The notes beneath the pieces were generated by a model. It searched no databases and was not told where the DNA came from. It was given only the letters and a program-made list of their open reading frames with translations. A DNA stretch of 64,000 nucleotides from Methylobacter sp. S3L5C (GTDB lineage: Bacteria; Pseudomonadota; Gammaproteobacteria; Methylococcales; Methylomonadaceae). Shown one piece after another: positions 3,177-57,165 of this stretch. A program made the position numbers and the translations under genes. The stretch lies in the NCBI RefSeq assembly GCF_022788635.1, contig NZ_CP076024.1:868001-932000 (forward strand), written 5' to 3'. Within the stretch, counting starts at the first letter, position 1. Each line of letters begins with the position of its first letter.

Positions 3177-5027
3177 TTATTGACCGCGCATGAAAAATTT
3201 ATCAAGATCGTTAGTTGATAATTCTATCCAAGTCGGCCTGCCGTGATTGCATTGTCCTATTCTTTCGGTTTGCTCCATATCCCTAAGCAATGCGTTCATC
3301 TCGTCTACGCTCAAACGGCGACGCGCACGGATAGCACCATGACAGGCGATAGTTGCCAATAACCGGTTGGATTGTTCCTGTATACGCTGACTCATGCCAT
3401 GCTCGTTTATATCAGCCAGTACATCACGTATCAAGGTTTCTTTATCAATGTTGCCCAATAAAGCTGGCGTTGATCGCAAAACAATCGTTTCAGGGCCGGA
3501 CCGGTTAAGCTCAAACCCTAACGTACTAAAAAACTCATGTTCTTGTTCTGCCAGATCAGCTTCTGCCAAACTGACGTTTATCTTAATCGGCAGCAACAAA
3601 GGTTGGCAAGGTATCGACCCTAATTGATATTGCTTTTTCAGACGCTCGTAGGTCACTCGTTCATGGGCTGCATGGGCATCAACGAGAATGATGCCTTTAG
3701 GAGTTTCGGCCAGAATATAAATATTATGCAAATGCGCGATAGCATAGCCTAACGGATGAGTATCCTGTGTTGAAGATAGTACTGGTACTGGGGCTAGCGA
3801 TGGTTGCTGCTTTTGTACAAACTGATCGTCCGGATACAATGAAGCATAAGCGCTTATTGTTTCCGCTACCGTAGGCAGTGACGTTTGTAGAGGCTGCCTT
3901 GGACTATAATCCGGTTTACGATCAAAATTTGAACTTGCCTGCGGCGTTGGTTTAAAATGCGGCTCATATTGCCTGGTTACGTTATCGCTAACCTGATCGA
4001 CTTCTACTACCTCGACACCGTGTTCCGGCCTGACATTGGCCAGGGACCGGTGTAATGCTGTAAACAAGAAATCGTGAACCAAACGACCTTCTCTAAACCT
4101 GACTTCCAGTTTTGCCGGATGTGCATTAACATCAACCAGAGTCGGGTCAAGTACCAAATACAAGACAAAAACCGAGTGTCGCCCATGAAACAAGACATCC
4201 TGATAGGCTTGCTTAACAGCGTGGGAAACCAGTTTATCCCTTATCAACCGACCGTTGACATAAAAAAACTGCATATCCTGCTGACTGCGGGAAAAGGTCG
4301 GCAACCCAACCCAACCGCTTAATTGCAAGCCTGATGCGGCAAAGTCAATTTTTACCGAACTCTCAATAAAAGCGGATCCGCAAATACCGGCAATCCTTTG
4401 CTCTTGCGCGCTATCCGTTACTGCGGGTTTTAAATTAAGCACTTCTTTTTGATTATGCGATAACGTAAAACCAATATCAAAGCGGCTCAGCGCCATTCTT
4501 TTTATTAACGTTTCAATATGGGCAAATTCGGTTTTTTCAGTTTTTAAAAACTTGCGTCTGGCTGGTGTATTATAAAATAAATCGCGCACATCAACCGTAG
4601 TGCCTTGAGGATGCGGATCGGGTTGCGGATCAAAGTTCTGTTCGGAGCCGTCTGCCATTACACTCCAGGCGCACTGGGCATCGGCAGTACGGGAAATTAA
4701 AGTAAGTCTGGCAACAGAACTGATACTGGGCAGGGCTTCACCACGAAAACCCATGCTGGCTACCTGTTCCAGATCCTGTAAGCTGGAAATTTTACTGGTC
4801 GCATGTCGTGATAAGGCAAGCGACAAGTCCTCTTTGACTATACCTGAACCATCATCCCTGATTTTTATCAGCCGGGCACCGCCCTGCTCAATATCAATGG
4901 TGATCTGCCTCGCTCCGGCATCAAAACAATTTTCAACCAGCTCTTTAACCACAGAAGAAGGTCTTTCGACTACTTCACCTGCAGCAATTTGATTAACCAG
5001 TTGAATGGGGAGTGAATGAATACGCAT
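3177..5027 (-). CDS. mutL: DNA mismatch repair protein MutL
   Basis: A 616-residue GHKL ATPase, full length. The N-terminal domain has IAAGEVVERPSSVVKELVEN (motif I with the catalytic Glu and Asn), DDGSGI and GFRGEALPSISS. The linker around residues 350-425 is poorly conserved and Pro/Gln-rich. The C-terminal dimerisation domain has DAHAAHERVTYERLKKQ and ACHGAIRARRRLS, and lacks an obvious DQHA(x)2E(x)4E endonuclease motif, as in Dam-dependent gammaproteobacteria. It links MutS mismatch recognition to MutH/UvrD. Its upstream operon partner amiC is now separated from it by an IS1-family element, so its promoter context may have changed. Confidence 0.97.
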   Translation of the reverse strand: MRIHSLPIQLVNQIAAGEVVERPSSVVKELVENCFDAGARQITIDIEQGGARLIKIRDDGSGIVKEDLSLALSRHATSKISSLQDLEQVASMGFRGEALPSISSVARLTLISRTADAQCAWSVMADGSEQNFDPQPDPHPQGTTVDVRDLFYNTPARRKFLKTEKTEFAHIETLIKRMALSRFDIGFTLSHNQKEVLNLKPAVTDSAQEQRIAGICGSAFIESSVKIDFAASGLQLSGWVGLPTFSRSQQDMQFFYVNGRLIRDKLVSHAVKQAYQDVLFHGRHSVFVLYLVLDPTLVDVNAHPAKLEVRFREGRLVHDFLFTALHRSLANVRPEHGVEVVEVDQVSDNVTRQYEPHFKPTPQASSNFDRKPDYSPRQPLQTSLPTVAETISAYASLYPDDQFVQKQQPSLAPVPVLSSTQDTHPLGYAIAHLHNIYILAETPKGIILVDAHAAHERVTYERLKKQYQLGSIPCQPLLLPIKINVSLAEADLAEQEHEFFSTLGFELNRSGPETIVLRSTPALLGNIDKETLIRDVLADINEHGMSQRIQEQSNRLLATIACHGAIRARRRLSVDEMNALLRDMEQTERIGQCNHGRPTWIELSTNDLDKFFMRGQ

Positions 5028-25665: not shown

Positions 25666-26601
25666 TCAAAAATTTACTCGCTCCAATTCAACTACCAACG
25701 GCATTTTACGTACTTGTGTATGAATAGACCCTATGTATTCACCAAGCACACCGATAAAGAATGCTTGAATTGCACCAAAGAAAAAAATGCCTATTAACAT
25801 TGGGGCGGTACCCAATTGAAAGGAATCCCAAAAGATGAGTTTCGCAATTAGAAAAACTACGGCAACAAAAAGACTCAAAAAAGACAGCAAAAAACCACTC
25901 ATTGCCATTAAACGGAGTGGTATCTTGGAATGATTGGTAATGCCCAGCATGGCAATATCGTATAGTGTGTAAAAATTATTCTTGGTAATACCACGTTGCC
26001 TTTTAGGCTGCCTAAAAGGAACTGTTGCTATAGGAAAGCCTATTTCACACAAAAGTCCGCGAAAATAGGGATAGGGATCATTGATATCACGGAGAATATC
26101 AATAACAACCCGATCAAACAGACCTGCTCCAGTCGCATTCTGTACCAATGGCACTTCAGATATCCGGGTTATGAAGCGATAATAGGTCTTTCTTAGAAAA
26201 AACATCATTGATGACTCTTCACTTTCCGGCTTGACTGCAAGCACTGTCTTAAAGCCCTCCTCCCATTTTTTTATAAAATCGACGATCATTTCAGGCGGAT
26301 CTTGCAGATCGGATGCAATCAAGACACAGGCATCTCCCTGTGACTGAAGAATTGCATAATAAGGCGATTTAATATGTCCAAAATTGCGTGCATTAACGAT
26401 CAGTTTGACTCGTTTGTCCCTTGTAGCGATCTCTTTGATCTTGCTAACAGTATTATCAGTTGAGGCATTATCGATACAAATATGCTCGTAATCATAGGGC
26501 AATCCCGCCATGACTGCGACTATACGCTGATAGAGTTCATCAATATTTTCTGCCTCGTTATAACAAGGAGTGACAATACTTATTAATTTTTTTTTCAACA
26601 T
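25666..26601 (-). CDS. GtrB/DPM1-like GT2 polyprenyl-phosphate glycosyltransferase
   Basis: 311 residues. The GT2 N-terminal domain starts SIVTPCYNEAENIDELYQ, with CIDNASTDNT and the metal-binding SDLQDPPEM. Two C-terminal membrane helices (about 228-250 and 262-285) end in the cytoplasmic QVRKMPLVVELER, as in GtrB and ArnC. It would load a sugar on undecaprenyl phosphate at the inner face of the inner membrane. The adjacent GtrA-like protein would flip it for a GT-C enzyme. It is the last gene of the long minus-strand polysaccharide region. Confidence 0.88.
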   Translation of the reverse strand: MLKKKLISIVTPCYNEAENIDELYQRIVAVMAGLPYDYEHICIDNASTDNTVSKIKEIATRDKRVKLIVNARNFGHIKSPYYAILQSQGDACVLIASDLQDPPEMIVDFIKKWEEGFKTVLAVKPESEESSMMFFLRKTYYRFITRISEVPLVQNATGAGLFDRVVIDILRDINDPYPYFRGLLCEIGFPIATVPFRQPKRQRGITKNNFYTLYDIAMLGITNHSKIPLRLMAMSGFLLSFLSLFVAVVFLIAKLIFWDSFQLGTAPMLIGIFFFGAIQAFFIGVLGEYIGSIHTQVRKMPLVVELERVNF

Positions 26602-26602
26602 C

Positions 26603-27088
26603 CTATTTATCCTTTTTATAAACCCAGTAATTCATTAACAGCCAACTTATAATTACGCTTAGCGGAATACATAAAGCCTGACCGATGTAAGGGTTAAATT
26701 GGAAATGCTCAATTAAAGCATCCAGCGCGGTTGCATTGATGCCATACACCAGACCATAGGCAGCAATAAACTTACCAAAAACAATCAGCCCACCCCGCAA
26801 TTTAAAAACCAATCGGCCAATACTAAAATAATTAAAAATTACACCCATTATGGTTGACATAAGCAGTGCAACTAAATAAGGCATATTTAAGGCGATTAAG
26901 ATGCCATAAATCCCGTAGCCTACAATCGTATTAAGCAGTCCAACACCTATAAATCTGGCTATTAGTTTTATTCGGTCACGGCTTTGTTCGGGTTGAAGAT
27001 TTACCGGGTTGATGGCTCTTCGATTTGATTTGGGTTGGCGATCTGACCTTCGTGATCGATTACTACTTGGTTTACGCCGCTTCTTCAA
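26603..27088 (-). CDS. GtrA-family membrane protein (candidate Und-P-sugar flippase)
   Basis: 161 residues. A very basic N-terminal tail of about 40 residues (KKRRKPSSNRSRRSDRQPK) precedes four membrane helices with GLLNTIVGYGIYG and the closing NYWVYKK motif. The start is TTG at 27088, overlapping the upstream stop as TTGA, an ATGA-like coupling. GtrA proteins pair with GtrB in prophage and chromosomal glucosylation systems. The basic tail is longer than usual. Confidence 0.82.
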   Translation of the reverse strand: MKKRRKPSSNRSRRSDRQPKSNRRAINPVNLQPEQSRDRIKLIARFIGVGLLNTIVGYGIYGILIALNMPYLVALLMSTIMGVIFNYFSIGRLVFKLRGGLIVFGKFIAAYGLVYGINATALDALIEHFQFNPYIGQALCIPLSVIISWLLMNYWVYKKDK

Positions 27089-39354: not shown

Positions 39355-40544
39355 TAAAAATTCTCCTTGTTGTGATTTTGTCTGGCAGCTTTAAGGTCGG
39401 CGTAGATAAGACGTGCTCGCGGCGTCAGGCCTGCTAATTCGGCTGCAACCGGAGGAAAGGCATTTCGCCGGGATGATGCATTTCTGGTTGCTCGCCTAAT
39501 ATAACCTTCCAAAGCAGGGAATTTAGCCAATACGACGAATACCATTCGCCTGAGTTTAGATCGTTGACTAACATATAGCTTTATATGCGTCAGCAACAGC
39601 TTGATTTTTTCTTTACTTTTTAACTTTGCCACCTTGGGGAAACGAAATAGGCTTTTCGCAGTGCGCCCGAGCATTCTAAGCGGCTCGGTAAGTCGCCATG
39701 ACAAACTATTATTTATGGCAATTAAAGCTACTTCAGCTTGATGAGCTTTATTTTCGGCTTGCCGAGCTTTAACTTCGGCCTGATAGATTTTAGTTTTTAT
39801 CTGTTGATCGTAACTATTGGCAATACTTTCCAACGAGAGCCCATAATTAGCCTTAAATGCCTTAACTGTTGCGGCAATAACTTTTGGAGCATTGCCTTTC
39901 TGGGCCACAACAGCGTAATCTTGACTAACGTCATTAAGTACATTCATTAATGTCAGTTCGTTATTATCAGCAATTCCGATTGGTTCTTGTAACCTCAAAA
40001 CCTTTACCTTTGCAAATCCTGAATACTCTGCGATAAAGGACAGTAACTGTAATGGGATAGGCCGCTGATGTGTCGGGTCCAAATAAAAACTTGCAGTACC
40101 AACTACAATATTTTCGGGATTGGGCGTTTCAAGGATTAGCAATCCGCCAGGTTTAAGGATTCGTAGCGACTCATTTATTAGAGTTTGAAGCAAATCAAAA
40201 GGCAGGTGTTCAGCCAAATGAAATGCCGAAACCAGCATTTGACTTTCCGACGCAACTGATTTCAGGGTTTCGATGGCATCGCCTTGGCTTACATTGAGTC
40301 CACGCCTACGAGCAGCATCAAGCATGCCTTGATCAAGATCAACGCCCCGCACATCAATCCCGTTTTCCTGCATAAGTTCCAGCCATTCTCCACGACCACA
40401 GCCTAAATCAATACCTTGGCAAGAAATGTCGAATTGCTTAAGCGGCAAAATAAATGGGAGATAGATCTCCAACCGCGATTTAATCAGTTCCTGTGATCCA
40501 CGGTGACGCTCTTCAAAAGCCCGGTAAAAGTTGAGATCAGCCAC
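39354..40544 (-). CDS. SAM methyltransferase, O-polysaccharide chain-end type
   Basis: 396 residues, GTG start. The class I fold has GIDLGCGRGEWLEL (SAM loop), GVDLDQGMLDAARRRG, SAFHLAEHLPF and LLILETPNPENI, as in WbdD-like methyltransferases. A coiled-coil stretch (about 240-275, rich in AEVKARQAENKAHQ) is followed by SLSWRLTEPLR, a motif shared with the 1399-residue glycosyltransferase. Its place directly after Wzt suggests that it caps the chain non-reducing end. The Wzt C-terminal domain would then recognise that cap for export. No kinase domain is present, unlike WbdD. Confidence 0.86.
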   Translation of the reverse strand: MADLNFYRAFEERHRGSQELIKSRLEIYLPFILPLKQFDISCQGIDLGCGRGEWLELMQENGIDVRGVDLDQGMLDAARRRGLNVSQGDAIETLKSVASESQMLVSAFHLAEHLPFDLLQTLINESLRILKPGGLLILETPNPENIVVGTASFYLDPTHQRPIPLQLLSFIAEYSGFAKVKVLRLQEPIGIADNNELTLMNVLNDVSQDYAVVAQKGNAPKVIAATVKAFKANYGLSLESIANSYDQQIKTKIYQAEVKARQAENKAHQAEVALIAINNSLSWRLTEPLRMLGRTAKSLFRFPKVAKLKSKEKIKLLLTHIKLYVSQRSKLRRMVFVVLAKFPALEGYIRRATRNASSRRNAFPPVAAELAGLTPRARLIYADLKAARQNHNKENF

Positions 40545-41760
40545 GTTGTAACTCCCAAGTAGGCGGCAACCAGGCTACGCCAGTAAAGCGTGGGTGATTG
40601 ATATTGACAATATTGAAAAGTAGCACCCTGTCTTTCCAAACATAATTGGCGGCAAGATGTGAGTCTGAAGCATGCAATGCAAGGGTGACAGAGTATGATC
40701 CCTCCCCCATATTTGCAGGAAAAGAAAAATGATATTTTACACGCTCACCCGGTTCAAGCGTTTTTAAAGACAATCCTAGGTGATGCGTATTGGTACCGTA
40801 AATCGATTGCCCTAGACGATCTTTAATCAGGTAGCCCAACACTAGTTCCGGAATATTGACATTTGCACGCACAGTAATTTTAAGAGTAATATTTTCGCCC
40901 ACATTAACCACTTCCACAGGTTCTCCCTCGCTATTAACAATAACGGCGGATTCTATCTCCGCTTCACCCGTGCCTGAAATGGTTTGTACCTTGCCGGTAT
41001 CCAGAACTATCTGTTCTATTTTTGAATTTTCTTTTTGCCCGATCACGGCATTGTAATAATCCATGACATCTTCAGGCTCGCCCTGCATGGCCAACTTGCC
41101 ATCGTTGAGCAGTATCGCACGATCACATATTGATTGGATGGCACTTTTATCGTGTGAGACAATCAGCAAGGTAGTACCTTGTTTACGAAATTCGCGTATA
41201 CGATCAAAACTTTTATGCTGGAAATAATCATCGCCTACCGATAACGCTTCATCAATAATTAACACATCCGGTCGACGTGCCGTTGCTACACTAAATGCCA
41301 AGCGCATTTGCATTCCGCTGGAATAGACACGCACAGGCTGATCCATGTAATCGCCAATTTCGGCAAATGCCTCAATATCAGGAATCAGGCTGGCAATTTC
41401 TTCAACGCTCATCCCCAATAATTGCCCTGCCATGTAGGTATTTTGCCGTCCGGTAAAATCGGGATGAAAACCCATGCCAAGCTCCAGTAAGGCGGCTACA
41501 CGTCCGGTAATATTAACGCTACCGGTAGTGGGTTGAGTCGTACCGGTGATCATTTTAAGCAGAGTACTCTTGCCAGCGCCATTGATACCGATAATGCCCA
41601 CCGCTTCCCCAGAATTAACGGTGAAATTAATATCCTGCAATACCCATTTAAGCTGATGCTGAGACTTGCTAAAAGGCACTAACCACTCTACCAGCCGCGA
41701 CCAGCGTGTGGGATATTGTTTGTAGGCTTTGCCTAAATTAGTAATAGTAATGGTGCCCAT
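40537..41760 (-). CDS. wzt: O-polysaccharide ABC exporter ATPase, cassette 2
   Basis: 407 residues. The ATPase domain (about 1-240) has GINGAGKSTLLKM (Walker A), the YSSGMQMRLAFSVA signature, DVLIIDEALSVGD (Walker B) and VSHDKS (H-loop). The C-terminal domain (about 265-405) is the beta-sandwich carbohydrate-binding module of Wzt proteins, which recognise a modified chain end. It overlaps the downstream methyltransferase by 8 bases. Upstream, a decayed HepT gene separates it from its permease. Confidence 0.93.
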   Translation of the reverse strand: MGTITITNLGKAYKQYPTRWSRLVEWLVPFSKSQHQLKWVLQDINFTVNSGEAVGIIGINGAGKSTLLKMITGTTQPTTGSVNITGRVAALLELGMGFHPDFTGRQNTYMAGQLLGMSVEEIASLIPDIEAFAEIGDYMDQPVRVYSSGMQMRLAFSVATARRPDVLIIDEALSVGDDYFQHKSFDRIREFRKQGTTLLIVSHDKSAIQSICDRAILLNDGKLAMQGEPEDVMDYYNAVIGQKENSKIEQIVLDTGKVQTISGTGEAEIESAVIVNSEGEPVEVVNVGENITLKITVRANVNIPELVLGYLIKDRLGQSIYGTNTHHLGLSLKTLEPGERVKYHFSFPANMGEGSYSVTLALHASDSHLAANYVWKDRVLLFNIVNINHPRFTGVAWLPPTWELQRG

Positions 41761-41778
41761 ATTTAATGTGTTTTCGTA

Positions 41779-42088
41779 TCAATTGGGCATTGCCAAAATG
41801 AGTTTATGCAAAAAAGCTGCAATAAATTGCAGGCGATCGTTAGTTATAATAGTTATAAATTCGTAAACAATTTGGATATCAATATTCATATAGTCATGTA
41901 GAATTCGGTCGCGTAAGTCAATCGCCGAATTCCATTGAAGTAACTCTTGCGGGTTTTATATCACCATTTTGTTCAATGCTGGTAAAAGTATCATAGTCAA
42001 ATACAGGTATCGGCTCGCCCGCTGACTTGAGCAAATGTTTTGATTTACCGGCAACATTTTCTGTGAAAGCTTTAAAGGCATGCAGACT
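41779..42088 (-). pseudogene. HepT-like (HEPN) toxin remnant, frameshifted
   Basis: Two overlapping frames reconstruct one protein. The first part reads SLHAFKAFTENVAGKSKHLL through VFDYDTFTSIEQNGDI. After a frame change the second reads NPQELLQWNSAIDLRDRILH, then DYMNIDIQIVYEFITI, ending at a TGA at 41779. RDRILHDY is the HEPN RNase motif R-x4-H-x-Y of HepT toxins. There is no start codon in the first frame and no MNT antitoxin gene nearby. It lies between wzm and wzt, which are normally adjacent, so it is a decayed insertion. Confidence 0.7.
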
Positions 42089-42107
42089 CCACTTTGCTCA
42101 AGTCGAG

Positions 42108-42902
42108 TCATAGCTCATCGACCATTTCACCGGCATGTTTGCGAAAAAGGCGCAGACCGAGAACACATAAGGCAATAGCAACGATGGTTACAGGCAACAG
42201 GCTTTGCCATATCGGCCACTTTCCGGTAACGAGAATATCCTGGAACGCATTAATAAGATTAGCCATAGGATTATAGCCCATCAATGAGCGCATGGATTCA
42301 GGTAGGATACTGATCGGATAGACAATCGGAGTGAGCCAAAACCAGAACTGAATGACGATACCAAAAAACTGTCCGACATCGCGAAAGAATACATTAAGCA
42401 CCCCAAGACTAATGCCTAGACCAATGGCCAAAACAACAAGAATGGCAAGCAAAGGAAACAGCGCCAAATAAACCAGACCGGGAAAGTTACCGGAAATAAG
42501 CAAAAAAATACTGAACAGGCCAAATACAATGAAGAAATTAACCATAGCATTAGTAACAACAATAACCGGCAAACATAGCCGAGGAAAACTCAACTTCTTA
42601 AGCAGGTTGGCGTGTTCAAGAAAGGTATTTTGCGCGCGGCTAACAATTTCAGCAAACAACCCCCAAGTTAGTATGCCGGCACATAGGTAAATGCTGTAAG
42701 CAAAAGAGCCATCAATACCCGGTAATTTAGAGTGCATTATTTGCGAAAAAATCATCGTATAGACTATGATCATAGCTAGCGGATTAATCAACGTCCACGC
42801 GGCACCCAGCAAAGAGTTACGGTATTTCGACTGAAATTCGCGCTTTACACTACCAAAAATAAAACTACGATATGCCCATAGGGAATTCAGCATACTCTTC
42901 AT
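42108..42902 (-). CDS. wzm: O-polysaccharide ABC exporter permease, cassette 2
   Basis: 264 residues with six membrane helices of the ABC-2 type. The N-terminal interface segment VKREFQSKYRNSLLGAAWTLINPL and the late FRDVGQFFGIVIQFWFWLTPIVYP (each read in parts) are typical of Wzm/TagG. It forms the channel half of the exporter that moves undecaprenyl-linked O-polysaccharide across the inner membrane. Its partner Wzt follows after a 350-base gap that holds the HepT remnant. Confidence 0.92.
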   Translation of the reverse strand: MKSMLNSLWAYRSFIFGSVKREFQSKYRNSLLGAAWTLINPLAMIIVYTMIFSQIMHSKLPGIDGSFAYSIYLCAGILTWGLFAEIVSRAQNTFLEHANLLKKLSFPRLCLPVIVVTNAMVNFFIVFGLFSIFLLISGNFPGLVYLALFPLLAILVVLAIGLGISLGVLNVFFRDVGQFFGIVIQFWFWLTPIVYPISILPESMRSLMGYNPMANLINAFQDILVTGKWPIWQSLLPVTIVAIALCVLGLRLFRKHAGEMVDEL

Positions 42903-44040: not shown

Positions 44041-44967
44041 TTCATAGTTCTCGTAAAATTAAGTTGGGGCTACCAGATGTAGAGGTAATTATGGCATAGA
44101 TTGCGAAAGTTAATTGTATATTAAGACAATCTACTCTTCAGGTTAGCTGTTATCGTTGTTGACTACATCTTCCTGCGGTGGCGGCCTCCAGCCTATGTTT
44201 TAATCAAATAAAACTGTTCAAAGTATTGTAAAATGCCAATCATTCGGATGTCAGATCTTAAAATGAAGCATTTTAAACAGTAGCTTCCAATCCAGCGAGC
44301 AATATCATCGCTATACACTTTCAGAGATTAAACTTCCAAAAATTCCGTTAGATTCTGTCCATTTAACAAAATCAAGCCAGAACGACCTTGTCAATTTGGG
44401 TCAAAATGAATGGAATAGGGATTTACCACGACCAAATCCGATTAATTTACTCTTCTTGGCAGGCTTATTTTGGTCCACTATACACTTTGCCATAATAAAT
44501 CAACGCTGTTGCTAATCGGTATGTTTGAATATTTTTTAATTTGAACGAGGTTAACAAACTTGCTCGTAGTTTTTCTAACAACGCTTTGGAAAAAGATATT
44601 GATAATACTGCCATTGATATGATGACTTAATTAACTCCTGGTTTTAAACCAGTACCTGAAAAATTTTCAAGCTGACAATGTCATACTGCTGAGGTTGATG
44701 CGAGAAAAAATGACGCAAAGCATCTTTCAGAATTTGTTCAATTGTACATCCTTGTTGCACTGCCTGATGCTTGGCATAAAGTAAAAATTAATCATCAATA
44801 TTTATAATGGTTCGCATAAATTTATCACCCGATAACAAATGAGTACAAAATAAAACAGAAAACCCTAATAAATGCAAGTATGTATCTATATCTAAAGAAA
44901 TAAAGGAGTCTGACTCTTCTTAGCTCTTTCAATTGATGACGAAAAAAGAGCCCGCTTTGTTGTCATG
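44041..44967. other. Non-coding region with decayed gene fragments
   Basis: No intact gene. Besides the VapB-like remnant at 44644-44817, the minus strand has a 30-codon frame from ATG 44493 to 44401 (MAKCIVDQNKPAKKSKLIGF...) followed by other open stretches. The plus strand has a short frame ending at 44629. None is recognisable. The region breaks an otherwise tightly packed polysaccharide cluster and looks like a graveyard of inserted small genes. The promoter for gmd-wzm-wzt is presumably here. Confidence 0.55.
44644..44817 (-). pseudogene. VapB-like antitoxin remnant with early stop
   Basis: From ATG 44817 the frame reads MRTIINIDD, then TAA at 44790-44788 (codon 10). It continues FLLYAKHQAVQQGCTIEQIL and KDALRHFFSH to a TAA at 44644. 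The pattern MRT-x-NIDD-x-LL-x-AK and a following helix is that of ribbon-helix-helix VapB-type antitoxins. The C-terminal residues look degraded, and no VapC gene remains beside it. Confidence 0.65.
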
Positions 44968-50138: not shown

Positions 50139-52040
50139 CTAATTTGACTTTTTAAAAAGACCGTTCAAAAAAGCTGGCGCAAGCGCTCCCATACAAGCAA
50201 AAGTAGGAATAATCGGCATTATGTAGCGTGCTTGTATAGCGCTAAAAGAACTGGCATCAATAATGCCAAACAATGCAATGCGCGTAATAATAGCGGTCGC
50301 TAGGACTACAAAAATACCCCCCCCCCCAGCGAGGTGTTCTCTATGAACGACTAACGAAAAAATGCCCCCTATAATCAAGAGACAGATTACATATCCTATC
50401 CATTCGTAAACTGTACAAAGTTTCAACAACCATTGATCCGCTCTATGTATTTTCGGATGTACATCCAACTTATCGATACCGATCTCCGCTTTTACATCAC
50501 CCTTAAAGGTCGACACAGCTCCTGCTTTTAATTGGCTTAAGGCAATGCTTCCTTTTTTGCCATCTAGCGTTAAGTAATGTAGAGTTGTTGTGGGTGTGAT
50601 ACTGATGGATGAAACAGTAAATGCATACGCACCGGGAACATCTGCACGCTGCTGTCCAGACAAACTCGACCATGGCGGTATCTCGTTTTCCGCACCCAGG
50701 CCGATTAATGTACCTGTCGGCAAGATTGTCCAGCCAGTTACGACTGTGTGGGGCGGTGCGGTTCGTCGCCCTGTAATTGTTACATAGTTATCAAACTGGC
50801 TGACCGATGCGTTCTCTTTGGGCGATTCAAGATATTGAAATTTTGGTTCTACTAAAAGTTGTAATACGTTAAAAACAGATTTCGGTACATCCGGCATCCA
50901 TTTATCCACATCGGGATCAAGAAAAGAAGAAAGGGTAAATCCTCGCTTCTTCAACCGGCCGGTTGCAAATGCATTTTCGAGTTCATTTGCTGCTGCTGCG
51001 TACTTGCTATCTGCAAATCTGGCATCCTGGTGCCATCCTGCTTGTGCTGCAACATCGCGTAGCGCCCAGAGAAACCATCCGTTACCAATCGCTCCTGCAA
51101 TGCCCGTATTCTGACTTGATATAGCAATCCACATTTTACCAATACCAGTTTCCATGAAAGGTTGAAGCTCACGGAAGGTAGGGCTTTCTTTATAGGCCAT
51201 AGTAAGCGCCTCTTTAGTGACCGTAAAGTGCTTCGGTGTTCGTCCGACATCAATGCCATTGAGTGCGGCAATCGCTTGTTGATATCCTGGTGCCGCCAGC
51301 TCATAACGGGCAAATACACCCCATTTCAGATAATTACCACCGGCTACTATTACACCTAAAAAAATTATTGATAGTAATGGCGCAATCAACAGCGGTATCG
51401 CTAATTGTTGCTTACCCCAACTACACCACCAACGCTGACGGTCTAACCAAGACCAACAGGCAATCACTAATAGTGGCATGGCCAATACGATTCCTTCTTT
51501 GCGAGTATGGAAAGCAATTGCGAATCCCACTATATAAACGACAAGAGCAATTCTACGTCGGTATGTGAATCCTTGCTCGCGGCAGTTCCATAACTCGATA
51601 CCTGCACCGATGATGGCAGCAAAAACTACAGTTAGAAATGTTTCGGCAAGCGCCCTGTCAAAAAAACTGATTGTGTAGGGATGAAAGGCCAAAAAGGCAA
51701 AAAGCAGAGCTGCCAACCAGGCCATCCGAGCGAAGCGAAGAAAGGCAAAGGCAAGATAACCGATAGCAAGCAGCCAAGCCAAATCAATTCCTAATCTGGC
51801 TGAAATGCCGAACAATTGTAAACAGTATAACCATGCTGAATAAATCGGCAGGTGAATAAAAGTCATCTGATTGTAAGAATCACCACCCCAAATTTTATTA
51901 AAGGCTGTTTGAATATACCAATATTCGTCATGTGGCGAATTTAACGCCAGAATGTCACGGTCTCCGGTAAGAATTAGCCTGAAAATGGCTGTCATTACAA
52001 TAAATATCCATAACAAGCGCTCGTTTCCCATTTTGATCAT
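50139..52040 (-). CDS. GT-C-like membrane glycosyltransferase with G11 tract
   Basis: 633 residues. About ten N-terminal membrane helices, with SPHDEYWYIQTAFNKIWGG in the first loop, where the Asp-Glu pair is like GT-C enzymes. A large periplasmic beta-rich domain (about 380-545) precedes two or three final helices. ATG 52040 overlaps the epimerase stop as ATGA. Residues 572-575 (GGGG) are encoded by eleven consecutive G. Loss of one G gives a TAG four codons later, and gain of one gives a TGA about 20 codons later. Both lose the final helices, so expression of the full product may switch. Confidence 0.8.
   Translation of the reverse strand: MIKMGNERLLWIFIVMTAIFRLILTGDRDILALNSPHDEYWYIQTAFNKIWGGDSYNQMTFIHLPIYSAWLYCLQLFGISARLGIDLAWLLAIGYLAFAFLRFARMAWLAALLFAFLAFHPYTISFFDRALAETFLTVVFAAIIGAGIELWNCREQGFTYRRRIALVVYIVGFAIAFHTRKEGIVLAMPLLVIACWSWLDRQRWWCSWGKQQLAIPLLIAPLLSIIFLGVIVAGGNYLKWGVFARYELAAPGYQQAIAALNGIDVGRTPKHFTVTKEALTMAYKESPTFRELQPFMETGIGKMWIAISSQNTGIAGAIGNGWFLWALRDVAAQAGWHQDARFADSKYAAAANELENAFATGRLKKRGFTLSSFLDPDVDKWMPDVPKSVFNVLQLLVEPKFQYLESPKENASVSQFDNYVTITGRRTAPPHTVVTGWTILPTGTLIGLGAENEIPPWSSLSGQQRADVPGAYAFTVSSISITPTTTLHYLTLDGKKGSIALSQLKAGAVSTFKGDVKAEIGIDKLDVHPKIHRADQWLLKLCTVYEWIGYVICLLIIGGIFSLVVHREHLAGGGGIFVVLATAIITRIALFGIIDASSFSAIQARYIMPIIPTFACMGALAPAFLNGLFKKSN
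50317..50327 (-). repeat. Homopolymer G11 tract (C11 on plus strand)
   Basis: Eleven C on the plus strand inside the 3' part of the GT-C gene; the longest G/C homopolymer I found in the window. Tracts of this length are prone to slipped-strand mispairing. Confidence 0.95.
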
Positions 52041-52969
52041 TTATTTAATACCTTACGCATCCATGCGGCAGTTTTAACAATCCCATCTTCAATCCTTACC
52101 TTAGGTTCCCATCCCAGTTCCTGTCGTGCCAAAGAATTATCCAGAACGCTTATTGGGACGTCAAACGGTCGTCCAGGCTGGTAATGCCTAATCACTTCGC
52201 GCCCGAGAACCTTCTCCAGCAGGACGATCATGTCATTCAGACTGGTGCCGACGCCTGAGCTGATATTGAAGACGGAATTTGTTCCTTCGTAATTTACGGC
52301 GAGAGCAAATGCCTCGGCGACATCGCTAACATAGAGATAGTCACGGGTAACACTGCCATCACCCCAGATTTCAATTGGTTGGTTTTGGATTGCTTTGCTC
52401 AAGAACACGCCCACTGCGCCTTGAGCAGTCTCGACACGCTGGCGCTCGCCAAAGGGATTGGCAACCCGAAGAATATTGGCATTAATGCCATGCAGTTCTT
52501 GATACATTAGCAAGTATTTCTCAATGGCCAGCTTTGTTATGCCATAGGATACTCGTGGCTCCGTTGGATGTTTTTCGTCTATGGGTAGATACACGGGATT
52601 GCCATAAACAGTACCCCCAGATGAAATAAAGACAATCTTGCGAACCTGTTTAGCAACCATCGCATTGAGCAACTGCAAGGTGGCGACAAGATTGCTCTGC
52701 ACATCATAAATCGGGTCATCATTAGAGTTCTTGGGCAACGTTGTCGAGACCAGATGCAAGATGACATCAACGTCGTCTATTGCGCTACTTACATCATGGA
52801 CGCTCATCAAATCGCCCGTCAGCCACTCAACTCTTTCGCCATCCAAAAACTGCCGATAGGGTTCTACGCGGGGACGTTCAAAAATGCGCAATTGATGACC
52901 ATCTTTAAGCAATCGATCTGCGATGGTTGAGCCGATAAAGCCACCACCGCCAAAAATAGTAATTTTCAT
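52037..52969 (-). CDS. NAD-dependent nucleotide-sugar epimerase (GalE-like SDR)
   Basis: 310 residues. ITIFGGGGFIGSTIADRLL is the NAD loop; FISSGGTVYG and YGITKLAIEKYLLMYQ (YxxxK) form the catalytic site; RVANPFGERQRVETAQGAVG and WGDGSVTRDYLYVSDVAEAF are extended-SDR blocks. It is closest in style to UDP-glucose 4-epimerase-like proteins. Overlaps of 4 bases on both sides place it between the giant glycosyltransferase and the GT-C gene. Specificity is unknown. Confidence 0.88.
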   Translation of the reverse strand: MKITIFGGGGFIGSTIADRLLKDGHQLRIFERPRVEPYRQFLDGERVEWLTGDLMSVHDVSSAIDDVDVILHLVSTTLPKNSNDDPIYDVQSNLVATLQLLNAMVAKQVRKIVFISSGGTVYGNPVYLPIDEKHPTEPRVSYGITKLAIEKYLLMYQELHGINANILRVANPFGERQRVETAQGAVGVFLSKAIQNQPIEIWGDGSVTRDYLYVSDVAEAFALAVNYEGTNSVFNISSGVGTSLNDMIVLLEKVLGREVIRHYQPGRPFDVPISVLDNSLARQELGWEPKVRIEDGIVKTAAWMRKVLNK

Positions 52970-55900
52970 CGGGTTAGCCCAATAACGTTTGTTGTAGCAT
53001 AATGCAAATTATTTAATGAAAGCGTCAAAGGAAACAGTCTTTCCAGCGCATGAAGTGACGTGCCATCGTAAGGCAAGGGTTCTTCAGGATAGTCGTCCCA
53101 ACCCAGGTTTAAATTCAGTAATGGAACCAAAGCTGAAGCCTTGGCCCAAAACATAGTGCCCACAGGAAAAATAAAATGTTCGGGTAATGTTTCAAGCCCC
53201 ATTCGTGCTGCTAATGGTTTAGCAAAGGCAAGATTAGTCCCCCAGCCTACTATATAAGGGTCATCAGGAAAAATCATCCCAATTGACACATCGTTATTCA
53301 TGTGTGTCAAGATGGTATCTGCCATTGGGCGCGATTCACTACCGAGCAAATTTTCCAACAAGAACTGACGCCATGTTTCACCCATCGAAGGATCCTTTAC
53401 ATCGACAGTTTTTTTTGTATGGATATGCCCGATAAAGTCATAGTTAGCTAATATCCCCTGACCGAAAGCCGTAAGCAACGGCCCTATATCCCGACCGCGA
53501 TTAGGGACAAGCTGTATATCAACAACTTTGCCTTTATAATTTATTAGCTCGCTAACAATCAACTGACGAGTGTTTTCATCGGTGATGCTAACAAACAAGT
53601 CAGGGCAAATCCGATTATATGCAAGTTGAGTAATTATTTCATCTAACAACTCAGGGTAGTAAATATGTAAATGCAATGCAATACGATGATTTTCCGGTAA
53701 ATTATCTACCATGACTTCCGGTGCGACAATCACCGGATAATTCCAAGATCCTTCTGGATGAGCCTCTCGTAAGTAGTCCGCAAATGGGTCTGTACCATGA
53801 GTTGCAAGTCCATGCTGCTCTTGGTAAATGCCGGGATGAAAGCCCGGGAAAGGTTTTCGGCGGTTAATCCCGCTTGCCCAGGCGCGAACATAAAGACGAA
53901 CTTCATCTTCAATCGAATGCACTTGCTGATGTTGAGGGCACGAGAAGTCTTGCCGAAACAGGCCGGCATCGAGAATGGTTTTTGTATCTACCTGCTCTTG
54001 CCGCGTACGATTGCAAATCCCTTGTGCCAAAACCTCAAGACGGGTAACGTATTTTTTCATATTAAAGTATGAAATCGAGGCTACACGGCATTGCTCTCCA
54101 ACGTCCTCACGTAAAAGCTGCGAAGCGGCCAAGGCCAGAATTTTTTGAGCCATATCAGATGAGTCAAGATATTGTGCAACACAATGATCTCGCAGACCAC
54201 TGTGAATAAGAAAATCCGCTATTCCGGTTGTCTTATCAAAACAAAGTACCGGCATCCCATAAGCCATTGCGTCAATCGCAACATTCGGCAATGGGTCTAG
54301 CCGCGACGAAAGCAGTAGCAGATCAGCTTCCTCATAAGCAGTTTCGATAGCGGTGGTTTCATTAATGAACAAAATATGTTCCTGAAGACCTGCACGGCGA
54401 ACCTGGTCTGCCAGATAAACAGAATACCCGATGTCATTTTCCGGATCATAGCCATTTCCGATCCAAATAAAACGACACCTAATTCCATCGGGCGCACGAA
54501 TAACACGGGTGGCACATTCGATAAACAGGTCAATACCTTTACGTAACTGCACAGACCCAGCTCCAAGCACAATCACTGTGTTCTCTGCAAGGCCCTTAGG
54601 ACGTATTAACCGGTGTATATGCTCACTCTCTATCTGGCGTTGCCCCTCACTGAATTCGGTCGGCAACAAACATCGGCCTTGGGGGAGAATATGAGCGGCC
54701 CGCTCGCTCAGATCAGGATACTCAGCGAACGCGTTTTCCATAGTTATATTCGCCGAGAAAACAACCTCGCCAGACCAAAAAATGGCGTCTCTGAACGCAT
54801 CCCGAGGGCGGGTGTAAGAAGCGAATTCATGAATCAAACTGATTGCAGGAACAAAGAATTTGCCCAGAGCTGGCAGCACTACGCGAGATTCTATGCTGTT
54901 AACCAAAGCGAATTTGAAATTAAAACTCGCACAGAGTTGGCCAACAATAGCATTTGCTAGGACTGGATTTCTCCTCAGGCAAAACGATTCAATCACTGCT
55001 GCCCCCGACAATTTAAAGGCATCGGAAAGTGAACCACCACCCAACAATAATGCAACAACGTTATGATGTTCTGCGAGAGCTTTAACGAGATTAAGACTTA
55101 GCACCGGTGCCCCAGTTCTGGATGCATCGTGGCTTACCACCAGTATCGTCTCGCGATCGGCTTTAAAATCATAAACGCCACAAAGATCCATCTCGGGTAG
55201 CATGTAAATGCGATCCTCATGATATCCATAAAGTAAATAATGAGTTGCTGGATCCATTCCAGCGGCAGCCACTTCTGGATATAACTTAAGATAAAGATCC
55301 CGATTGAAATTATCCGGAAGCTTGCCATACTCGCTACCAATATCCATCTCCGGCAGAGTGTAAGCACGACTCTCTCGACAGCCGTCCAGCAAATAGTGTA
55401 TTGCTGGATCAAACCCCGCCTCGGCTACGTCTGGATTAAGTTTGAGATAAGCATCCCGATCGAAGCTCTCTGGAAGCTTATCGAGGTTAATGGTTAATTT
55501 CCTATAAGCACGCTTCACTAGCAATACTAACTTCAGTCGACTGACTCGGCGTGAAATAAACCGTAATGGTTTCGTTATCTGCCAACTGGTTGAGCGCCGC
55601 AAAACAGCAATTTCATGAGCATGGATTGTTAAGGTTTGATTGAGATTGACGATCTGTGCATTTGCAGTTCGTAATAGCGCATCAAATTTTTCTGCCTGGA
55701 GCTTGTATGCATTTATCTGTTGTTCGCGTTCAATTAACTGAGACTGTAACTTGTTAGCTGCAACAGAATCGATGGCGTTGATTTCAGCCGTTTCATCAAG
55801 AAATATCTGCAGGTCATCAGCGGTATATTGGCGTAATTTAGGTACAGCATCTATATCTTGGATTTTTGAGAAGTCAGTAGCGTTGATAAGCGATTTGTCA

Positions 55901-57165
55901 GAGTGATATTTGCCGTAATGCGCTCTGGCCAAAAGTGAATGACGCATCAAGTCATCAACCGATATATTACTTGCCATATCAAGCAGATCAGCCTCAGTTC
56001 GCCATAGCCAGGCATCCGGATAGGCAAGATCACCGCCCCCATGGAACCGGGAGCGATAGCTTTGATGCATCAGTAAAGGAGTGCCGGCCGCCATGGCCTC
56101 AAGAGTCGCTTTTCCACCACCTAAAGGAAACGACGAAATATAAAGATCCACATGGTATTCAATGAGTGCTCTGGCAACCGATGGCACCCACGGGATATTA
56201 GTGAAACGCGCAGGGTCGACACCCTCAGCCATAAGCGCATGTTGTAAACCAGCTTCCATATCCGCTGTTAGGCTACCAATGTGAATGTGGCGACCACTGG
56301 TCGCAGCCAGTAACTTTGGTATCAGTTTAAAATAGTCGTAAAGGTAATAACTTGCGTTAAATTTATCCGGGCGGCCACTGGAACAAGTCACAAGATGCCC
56401 TTCACTTAAAAATTGATCAGACCTTGGCTCTAATGAGCCAAGGTTGATCGTAAGCGGCCAATAGTAATTATTCTTTATACCTAATTCATTCTTGCAATGG
56501 AAGAATCCTATATTGTGCGGATCTATATGGATAAAATCCTCACAGGTAACTCCCAAGCATAAATGGTGATCTGCATGATGAATGAAAACCACTTTGCCTG
56601 CAACATAGGAGCTTGCGGCTGCGATACCCACACCATCCTGATTATAAGTTAGCAGAACCAATGTAGTCGGTACTGAACTTCGCAAACGATCAAAAAGCCA
56701 CATCAATCGATCATTAGTGGAGCATACCTTCGCAACCTCAATAGTGACTCCATAAGTTACCGAGAAATTAGTTATTATGTCTTCTTGTGCTCTGTCGAGA
56801 ATATCTGTTAATAGAATACTAATAGGGGCATCAAATAATTTAAGTCTGATGATATCCTTTATTAACTCTACATGCCCGCCTGCATTAACGAGTTCAGTGG
56901 CGAGGATAACAGTACCTTTTCTCTCTAAAGGACAAAGGGAACCAATTCCTGCTTTGCTCGCCGCAATCTTGCCAATATATCGACATAACTTATCAAGATC
57001 AGCGCTTGCAAAGACCTTGCCGACTGATCTTTGATTATTAATTACCGCTTCTGAAAACTGGCGGATTGCATCCAAAGCATCTCCAAACTTGCCGCATTCT
57101 ACCAAAGCGTATACTTGCGACTCCAAGTCAGTAATTGAAGCCCTTTCGGCCTGATGTGTTGTCAT
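52966..57165 (-). CDS. Giant glycosyltransferase: two GT domains, tandem repeats, RgpF domain
   Basis: 1399 residues. The N-terminal GT-B-like domain (about 60-450) has PWVPSVARALIEYHVDLYIS and FPLGGGKATLEAMAAGTPLL, similar to the SPINDLY/OGT donor region. A coiled coil (about 470-520) ends in STSWQITKPLRF. Two ~50-residue repeats follow (from KLPESFDRDAYLKLNPDVAE and from KLPDNFNRDLYLKLYPEVAA). A second GT4 domain (about 680-1040) has VVSHDASRTGAPVLSLNLVK, GAGSVQLRKGIDLFIE and SSRLDPLPNVAIDAMAYG. The C-terminal ~300 residues are a rhamnan synthesis F (RgpF) domain with LHLHIYYPELLDEI, PNRGRDIGPLL and FIGHIHTKK. It probably builds several linkages of the O-chain. Confidence 0.9.
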   Translation of the reverse strand: MTTHQAERASITDLESQVYALVECGKFGDALDAIRQFSEAVINNQRSVGKVFASADLDKLCRYIGKIAASKAGIGSLCPLERKGTVILATELVNAGGHVELIKDIIRLKLFDAPISILLTDILDRAQEDIITNFSVTYGVTIEVAKVCSTNDRLMWLFDRLRSSVPTTLVLLTYNQDGVGIAAASSYVAGKVVFIHHADHHLCLGVTCEDFIHIDPHNIGFFHCKNELGIKNNYYWPLTINLGSLEPRSDQFLSEGHLVTCSSGRPDKFNASYYLYDYFKLIPKLLAATSGRHIHIGSLTADMEAGLQHALMAEGVDPARFTNIPWVPSVARALIEYHVDLYISSFPLGGGKATLEAMAAGTPLLMHQSYRSRFHGGGDLAYPDAWLWRTEADLLDMASNISVDDLMRHSLLARAHYGKYHSDKSLINATDFSKIQDIDAVPKLRQYTADDLQIFLDETAEINAIDSVAANKLQSQLIEREQQINAYKLQAEKFDALLRTANAQIVNLNQTLTIHAHEIAVLRRSTSWQITKPLRFISRRVSRLKLVLLVKRAYRKLTINLDKLPESFDRDAYLKLNPDVAEAGFDPAIHYLLDGCRESRAYTLPEMDIGSEYGKLPDNFNRDLYLKLYPEVAAAGMDPATHYLLYGYHEDRIYMLPEMDLCGVYDFKADRETILVVSHDASRTGAPVLSLNLVKALAEHHNVVALLLGGGSLSDAFKLSGAAVIESFCLRRNPVLANAIVGQLCASFNFKFALVNSIESRVVLPALGKFFVPAISLIHEFASYTRPRDAFRDAIFWSGEVVFSANITMENAFAEYPDLSERAAHILPQGRCLLPTEFSEGQRQIESEHIHRLIRPKGLAENTVIVLGAGSVQLRKGIDLFIECATRVIRAPDGIRCRFIWIGNGYDPENDIGYSVYLADQVRRAGLQEHILFINETTAIETAYEEADLLLLSSRLDPLPNVAIDAMAYGMPVLCFDKTTGIADFLIHSGLRDHCVAQYLDSSDMAQKILALAASQLLREDVGEQCRVASISYFNMKKYVTRLEVLAQGICNRTRQEQVDTKTILDAGLFRQDFSCPQHQQVHSIEDEVRLYVRAWASGINRRKPFPGFHPGIYQEQHGLATHGTDPFADYLREAHPEGSWNYPVIVAPEVMVDNLPENHRIALHLHIYYPELLDEIITQLAYNRICPDLFVSITDENTRQLIVSELINYKGKVVDIQLVPNRGRDIGPLLTAFGQGILANYDFIGHIHTKKTVDVKDPSMGETWRQFLLENLLGSESRPMADTILTHMNNDVSIGMIFPDDPYIVGWGTNLAFAKPLAARMGLETLPEHFIFPVGTMFWAKASALVPLLNLNLGWDDYPEEPLPYDGTSLHALERLFPLTLSLNNLHYATTNVIGLTR

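Follow-up and report, generated by a model that had tools for sequence, protein, structure and literature searches.

Most known poly-G contingency genes belong to host-associated pathogens. One of these species, Campylobacter jejuni, is not known to have a MutS/MutL mismatch repair pathway. Surface glycans are also modified by the Gtr modules that glucosylate the O-antigen of Salmonella and Shigella, which combine a GtrA flippase with GtrB and a polytopic Gtr transferase; the gtr operons of Salmonella undergo phase variation by means of DNA methylation, not by means of a G tract. Poly-G tracts lie in capsule and LOS genes of C. jejuni, such as cj1139 (wlaN) and cj1426, and for cj1426 the switching has been measured, at about 2e-2 (PMC8437040). 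A search of the literature found no paper on phase variation in methanotrophs.

The organism considered here, Methylobacter sp. S3L5C, is a psychrophilic lake methanotroph with one chromosome of 4,815,745 bp and 43.3% G+C, assembled with Unicycler from PacBio and Illumina NovaSeq reads (PMC9723741). We analysed a window of 64,000 nucleotides of this chromosome (43.2% G+C); coordinates refer to the window unless they are said to be those of the genome. On the minus strand the window holds an open reading frame of 633 amino acids (50139-52040) for a polytopic GT-C-like glycosyltransferase. Late within this gene, a homopolymer of eleven G (50317-50327, minus strand; eleven C on the plus strand; 918317-918327 of CP076024) codes for Gly572-575 and runs into the frame of Ile576. 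An earlier note on this DNA had read the eleven G as GGGG at residues 572-575, and our recomputation returned exactly this run and frame. The same note had held that removal of one G leads to a TAG four codons on, that addition of one G leads to a TGA about 20 codons on, and that the last membrane helices are gone either way. In silico, the sequence with ten G reads ...GGGVFL and then meets the TAG (50306-50308, minus strand), for a product of 577 amino acids; with twelve G it reads ...GGGG plus 19 residues and then meets the TGA (50257-50259, minus strand), for a product of 594. Both shifted frames remove helices 573-597 and 604-629 of the AlphaFold model, and so all three claims stand. By frame logic, the in-frame tract lengths other than 11 are 8 or 14.

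The positions of these two stops also bear on the idea that the run slips at the level of RNA: with the DNA unchanged, RNA polymerase or the ribosome would slip on the eleven G, and full-length and truncated protein would be made in a constant ratio. Known cases of transcriptional slippage are mainly on A/T runs. Long homopolymers can indeed cause such slippage, as poly(A) does in Buchnera (PMC2831843), but here the run is of G and both shifted frames stop soon; we consider this explanation very improbable.

The part of the protein beyond the tract is conserved. In alignments of nine and of 24 homologues there is a C-terminal motif of R587, S598, F599 and Y606 (residues 587-606; 50223-50282, minus strand). 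R587 and S598 are at least 90% conserved and Y606 is invariant in the 24-sequence alignment, F599 is invariant among the closer set of nine homologues, and residues 586-600 are among the most conserved blocks of the homologue alignment. Neither the 577- nor the 594-residue product retains any of these four residues. A one-base slip should therefore inactivate the enzyme: judging by the loss of the motif, the products of both G10 and G12 should be inactive.

The G11 site itself coincides with the beginning of the penultimate helix. In the 24-sequence alignment it directly follows a short loop, which carries positive charge in most of the homologues, and the residues that these have at the site are mostly of the P/A-L-L/F/Y-V type. 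The earlier note had named, as evidence against a switch, relatives that keep GGGG without a homopolymer; in the alignment, GGGG occurs at this site in none of 23 homologues. Since, in addition, GGG makes up only 13% of the glycine codons in the gene cluster, a demand for glycine does not explain the run. None of the homologues has a comparable tract at the same place, which, like the late position of the tract in the gene, speaks against a switch.

The distance between the tract and R587 is for the most part the one seen across the homologue family, in agreement with a functional length of 11. This is of importance for the possibility that the tract length is in error, in other words that the run has some length other than 11, or one masked by the consensus, and that the frame has been misjudged. 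Homopolymers are error-prone, and in one draft genome of the genus (L045; G016:C57) ftsZ is apparently frameshifted exactly at a G12, either by an error of consensus length or as a real variant, which is a warning on assembled tract lengths. The S3L5C assembly, however, is a hybrid of PacBio and Illumina reads (public as SRR14663859 and SRR14663858, respectively), and a length of 11 gives both an intact reading frame and the family spacing, where a random length would do so one third of the time. We regard an error of length as improbable, if somewhat less so than slippage on RNA.

The next-longest G/C runs in the window are of 7 or less. Expected numbers of runs were obtained from a model of run lengths fitted to the window, and genome-wide counts by pattern search. 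For G/C runs of at least 11, 3 are present in the genome against about 0.06 expected, and for runs of at least 9, 13 are present against about 1.8 expected. The G11 tract is well above the expectation from composition, yet it is not unique in the S3L5C genome. The coding runs of at least 9 are the G11 in the GT-C-like gene, a G9 in a decayed histidine-kinase paralogue and a G16 in a small repressor-like ORF; the remaining 10 are intergenic or of doubtful status. We infer from the excess of long G runs that runs may grow by slippage once they are long. Growth of this kind is the core of a neutral explanation of the tract, by which G runs drift upward by slippage, one of them persists in an accessory, weakly constrained gene, and its rare frameshifts are ordinary losses of function. 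That the surplus is mainly intergenic agrees with neutrality; nevertheless, long G runs are rare within genes, the frame here is intact, and selection should have removed a merely harmful G11 from a site where glycine is unconserved and a conserved motif follows directly.

Some of the other runs deserve a separate description. An intergenic run of 23 G (genome 3824533-3824555; L016) could have arisen in assembly or by extreme slippage. A second in-frame candidate, the G9 in the histidine-kinase gene (genome 4263443), was rejected as a switch, because this gene is a decayed paralogue with base changes and insertions around the tract: of the duplicates at 3497184-3498191 (L117) and 4262388-4263395 (L017) of the genome, one is intact and one is decayed, with the G9 and small insertions. 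A tract of 10 C near a LexA/UmuD-like gene (L015) was rejected as coding and is probably upstream of the true start. Within the window, nine A at 26587-26595 make up codons 3-5 of a GT2 gene adjoining gtrA (MLKKKLISIV); this run, near chance in AT-rich DNA, may be a weaker slippage candidate and may share the pathway.

Across the genus, which includes M. psychrophilus Z-0021 (4,691,082 bp in 156 contigs, with 92.9% ANI to S3L5C; PMC9679665), our scan recovered 42 distinct G/C runs of at least 11 in 18 of 35 genomes, each of which was inspected. Most of them are intergenic or at the ends of ORFs. Internal coding runs of relatives include those in glycine-rich motifs of aroC, cysS, ftsZ and an amino-acid kinase, where these housekeeping tracts are G11-12, and others lie in an acyltransferase-3 gene (G11) and an HTH gene (G13). 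Comparable runs in housekeeping genes are what a neutral tract would lead one to expect, and thus a coding G11 alone does not mean phase variation. An orthologous intergenic G tract with identical 25-nt flanks measures 9 in S3L5C (genome 496845-496853; L010) and 15 in G002 (L036, C112); tract lengths do change in the lineage, therefore, if both assemblies are right.

The acyltransferase-3 (PF01757) gene with G11, at L110:508-1692 (G022:C302), adjoins a possible glycosyltransferase gene and is a candidate for a second surface-glycan tract in the genus. The G16 of S3L5C (genome 4308173-4308188) lies in the 3' part of a small repressor-like ORF without a Pfam match (L018:1704-2258), and the G13 lies in the 3' part of another, which matches HTH_3 (L111:1455-1859; G022:C662); both ORFs are near a related kinase-like ORF (MSLNKTIIGF...KQSGKSTAAE). 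It is possible that the tracts in the repressor-like ORFs are prophage-linked and conserved in kind across the two Methylobacter genomes. A more far-reaching proposal, which we think unlikely, is that free-living Methylobacter uses a small poly-G contingency set (GT-C, acyltransferase-3 and HTH regulator-like genes; G11-G16) as a source of cell-type mixtures, for instance where phages exert pressure, even though mismatch repair is present.

As to what the enzyme does, a Pfam search of the 633-residue protein with an E-value limit of 10 returned no family, PMT, PMT_2 and Arnt_C included, and a sequence search of the PDB returned no match. Its AlphaFold model (pLDDT 77, pTM 0.78, from 24 sequences) shows a membrane protein of many helices; a large soluble region separates helix 214-240 from helix 533-565. 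Compared with the PDB by Foldseek, the model has as its top folds Pmt4, ArnT and oligosaccharyltransferases, with a probability of about 1.00 for the first ones; for PMT and ArnT the E-values are 3e-3 to 5e-3, the TM-scores 0.28-0.38 and the identities 10-15%. The assignment to GT-C in the earlier note agrees with these fold matches; with a best E-value of 2.9e-3 and no TM-score above 0.38, GT-C is a likely fold class and not a proven family. At about 20-29% identity, distant homologues are scattered among bacteria such as Luteimonas, Rhodanobacter, Polynucleobacter, Bradyrhizobium, cyanobacteria and Methylococcales, and four relatives from the same family carry a fused GtrA domain. From the fusion with this flippase domain, together with the GT-C-like model, the protein is probably a periplasmic glycan-decorating enzyme.

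The neighbouring genes, all on the minus strand, provide a surface-structure context. Downstream of the tract gene is a second GT-C-like gene (PMT_2, PF13231; 47913-49907), and upstream are an NAD-dependent epimerase (PF01370; 52037-52969), which shares synteny and 87% identity with its counterpart in G046, and a large glycosyltransferase with RgpF and GT1/GT4 domains by Pfam (52966-57165). The cluster, with these and other glycosyltransferases, also encodes a Wzt-like protein with Wzt_C and a Wzm-like protein (40537-42902; PF14524, PF00005, PF01061), which form an ABC exporter of glycan. This agrees with the description of a polysaccharide gene in the earlier note; the cluster is a surface-glycan cluster of the ABC-exporter type. 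Further away, a GT2 and GtrA pair (25666-27088; PF00535, PF04138) is a possible source of a flipped, lipid-linked sugar donor. With this pair and the Wzt_C exporter in the window, the likely role of the enzyme is the decoration of an exported glycan from a lipid-linked sugar. Thus, where the earlier note had allowed variation in either the length or the decoration of the O-chain, we would narrow this to decoration, which is favoured by the GtrA-fused relatives and the GtrA/GT2 pair.

The tract gene is accessory. The 34 other Methylobacter genomes contain no orthologue; G028 has homologues at 26-29% identity, and the family and order have only distant ones, at about 20-29%. A search of plasmids with the protein gave only matches of 22%, and an initial scan of contigs with this single protein as query gave none. 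In G046, which belongs to another genus of the family, the genes upstream have identities of 87% and 65%. DNA identity stops at the start of the tract gene, and what follows is a remnant of about 60 amino acids with residues ~7-65 recognisable and the frames broken; this genome has apparently lost the gene. Absent from congeners and a remnant beside syntenic genes in G046, the gene is dispensable, a point for the switch; its loss by truncation counts in favour of a neutral tract. In congener G002, about 44.6-61 kb of the window is without a good match and only the dehydratase region at 43.1-44.0 kb matches well. Short stretches of the window at ~44145-44630 match several G002 contigs in both orientations, as a dispersed repeat edging the variable glycan segment.

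Whether a slip matters depends in part on how often it occurs. An intact MutL is encoded in the window (3177-5027, minus strand; Pfam) and a MutS frame of 864 amino acids elsewhere in the genome. The rate of slippage should be lowered as a result, and rates such as the ~2e-2 of cj1426 should not be assumed; mismatch repair is in this respect a further point for neutrality. All told, we take the neutral tract to be a serious rival with a substantial chance of being right, and give about an even chance to a tract that slips readily and can serve as an on/off switch for an accessory, glycan-decorating enzyme; an error of length and slippage on RNA are less likely than either.

If the tract is a switch, a run of 11 G (or 8, or 14) would give the full periplasm-facing GT-C glycosyltransferase. 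Loss or gain of one G in replication would yield 577 or 594 amino acids, lacking the final two membrane helices as well as the motif, the truncated enzyme would presumably be inactive and the cell-surface glycan undecorated, and a second slip would restore both the reading frame and the enzyme. Slippage would have to be frequent enough to matter, and selection, probably by phage, would have to favour a mixed population. Were this so, clonal populations of an important consumer of lake methane would be mixtures of surface types, with effects on attachment and on resistance to phage, and phage pressure could be followed simply by the length of the tract in metagenomic reads.

How, then, does the locus compare with known systems? 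ArnT and PMT (PDB 5f15, 9i5l) are the best fold matches, and the homologues all keep D38, which follows the first helix, but identity is 10-15%, TM-scores are 0.28-0.38 and there is no Pfam match to PMT or ArnT here. With the Gtr modules the locus shares a polytopic transferase, the fusion to GtrA in some relatives and a GtrA/GT2 pair in the window, whereas the tract protein has no demonstrated homology to known polytopic Gtr transferases. The likeness to the capsule and LOS genes of C. jejuni is that a G tract lies in a surface-glycan gene and a one-base change truncates the product. C. jejuni, however, has many tract genes per genome and measured switching, whereas S3L5C has one glycan tract, a candidate for switching, in a genome that encodes MutS and MutL. 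As a predicted poly-G contingency locus in an environmental methanotroph, the G11 gene is a good candidate, new in its organism and known in its kind.
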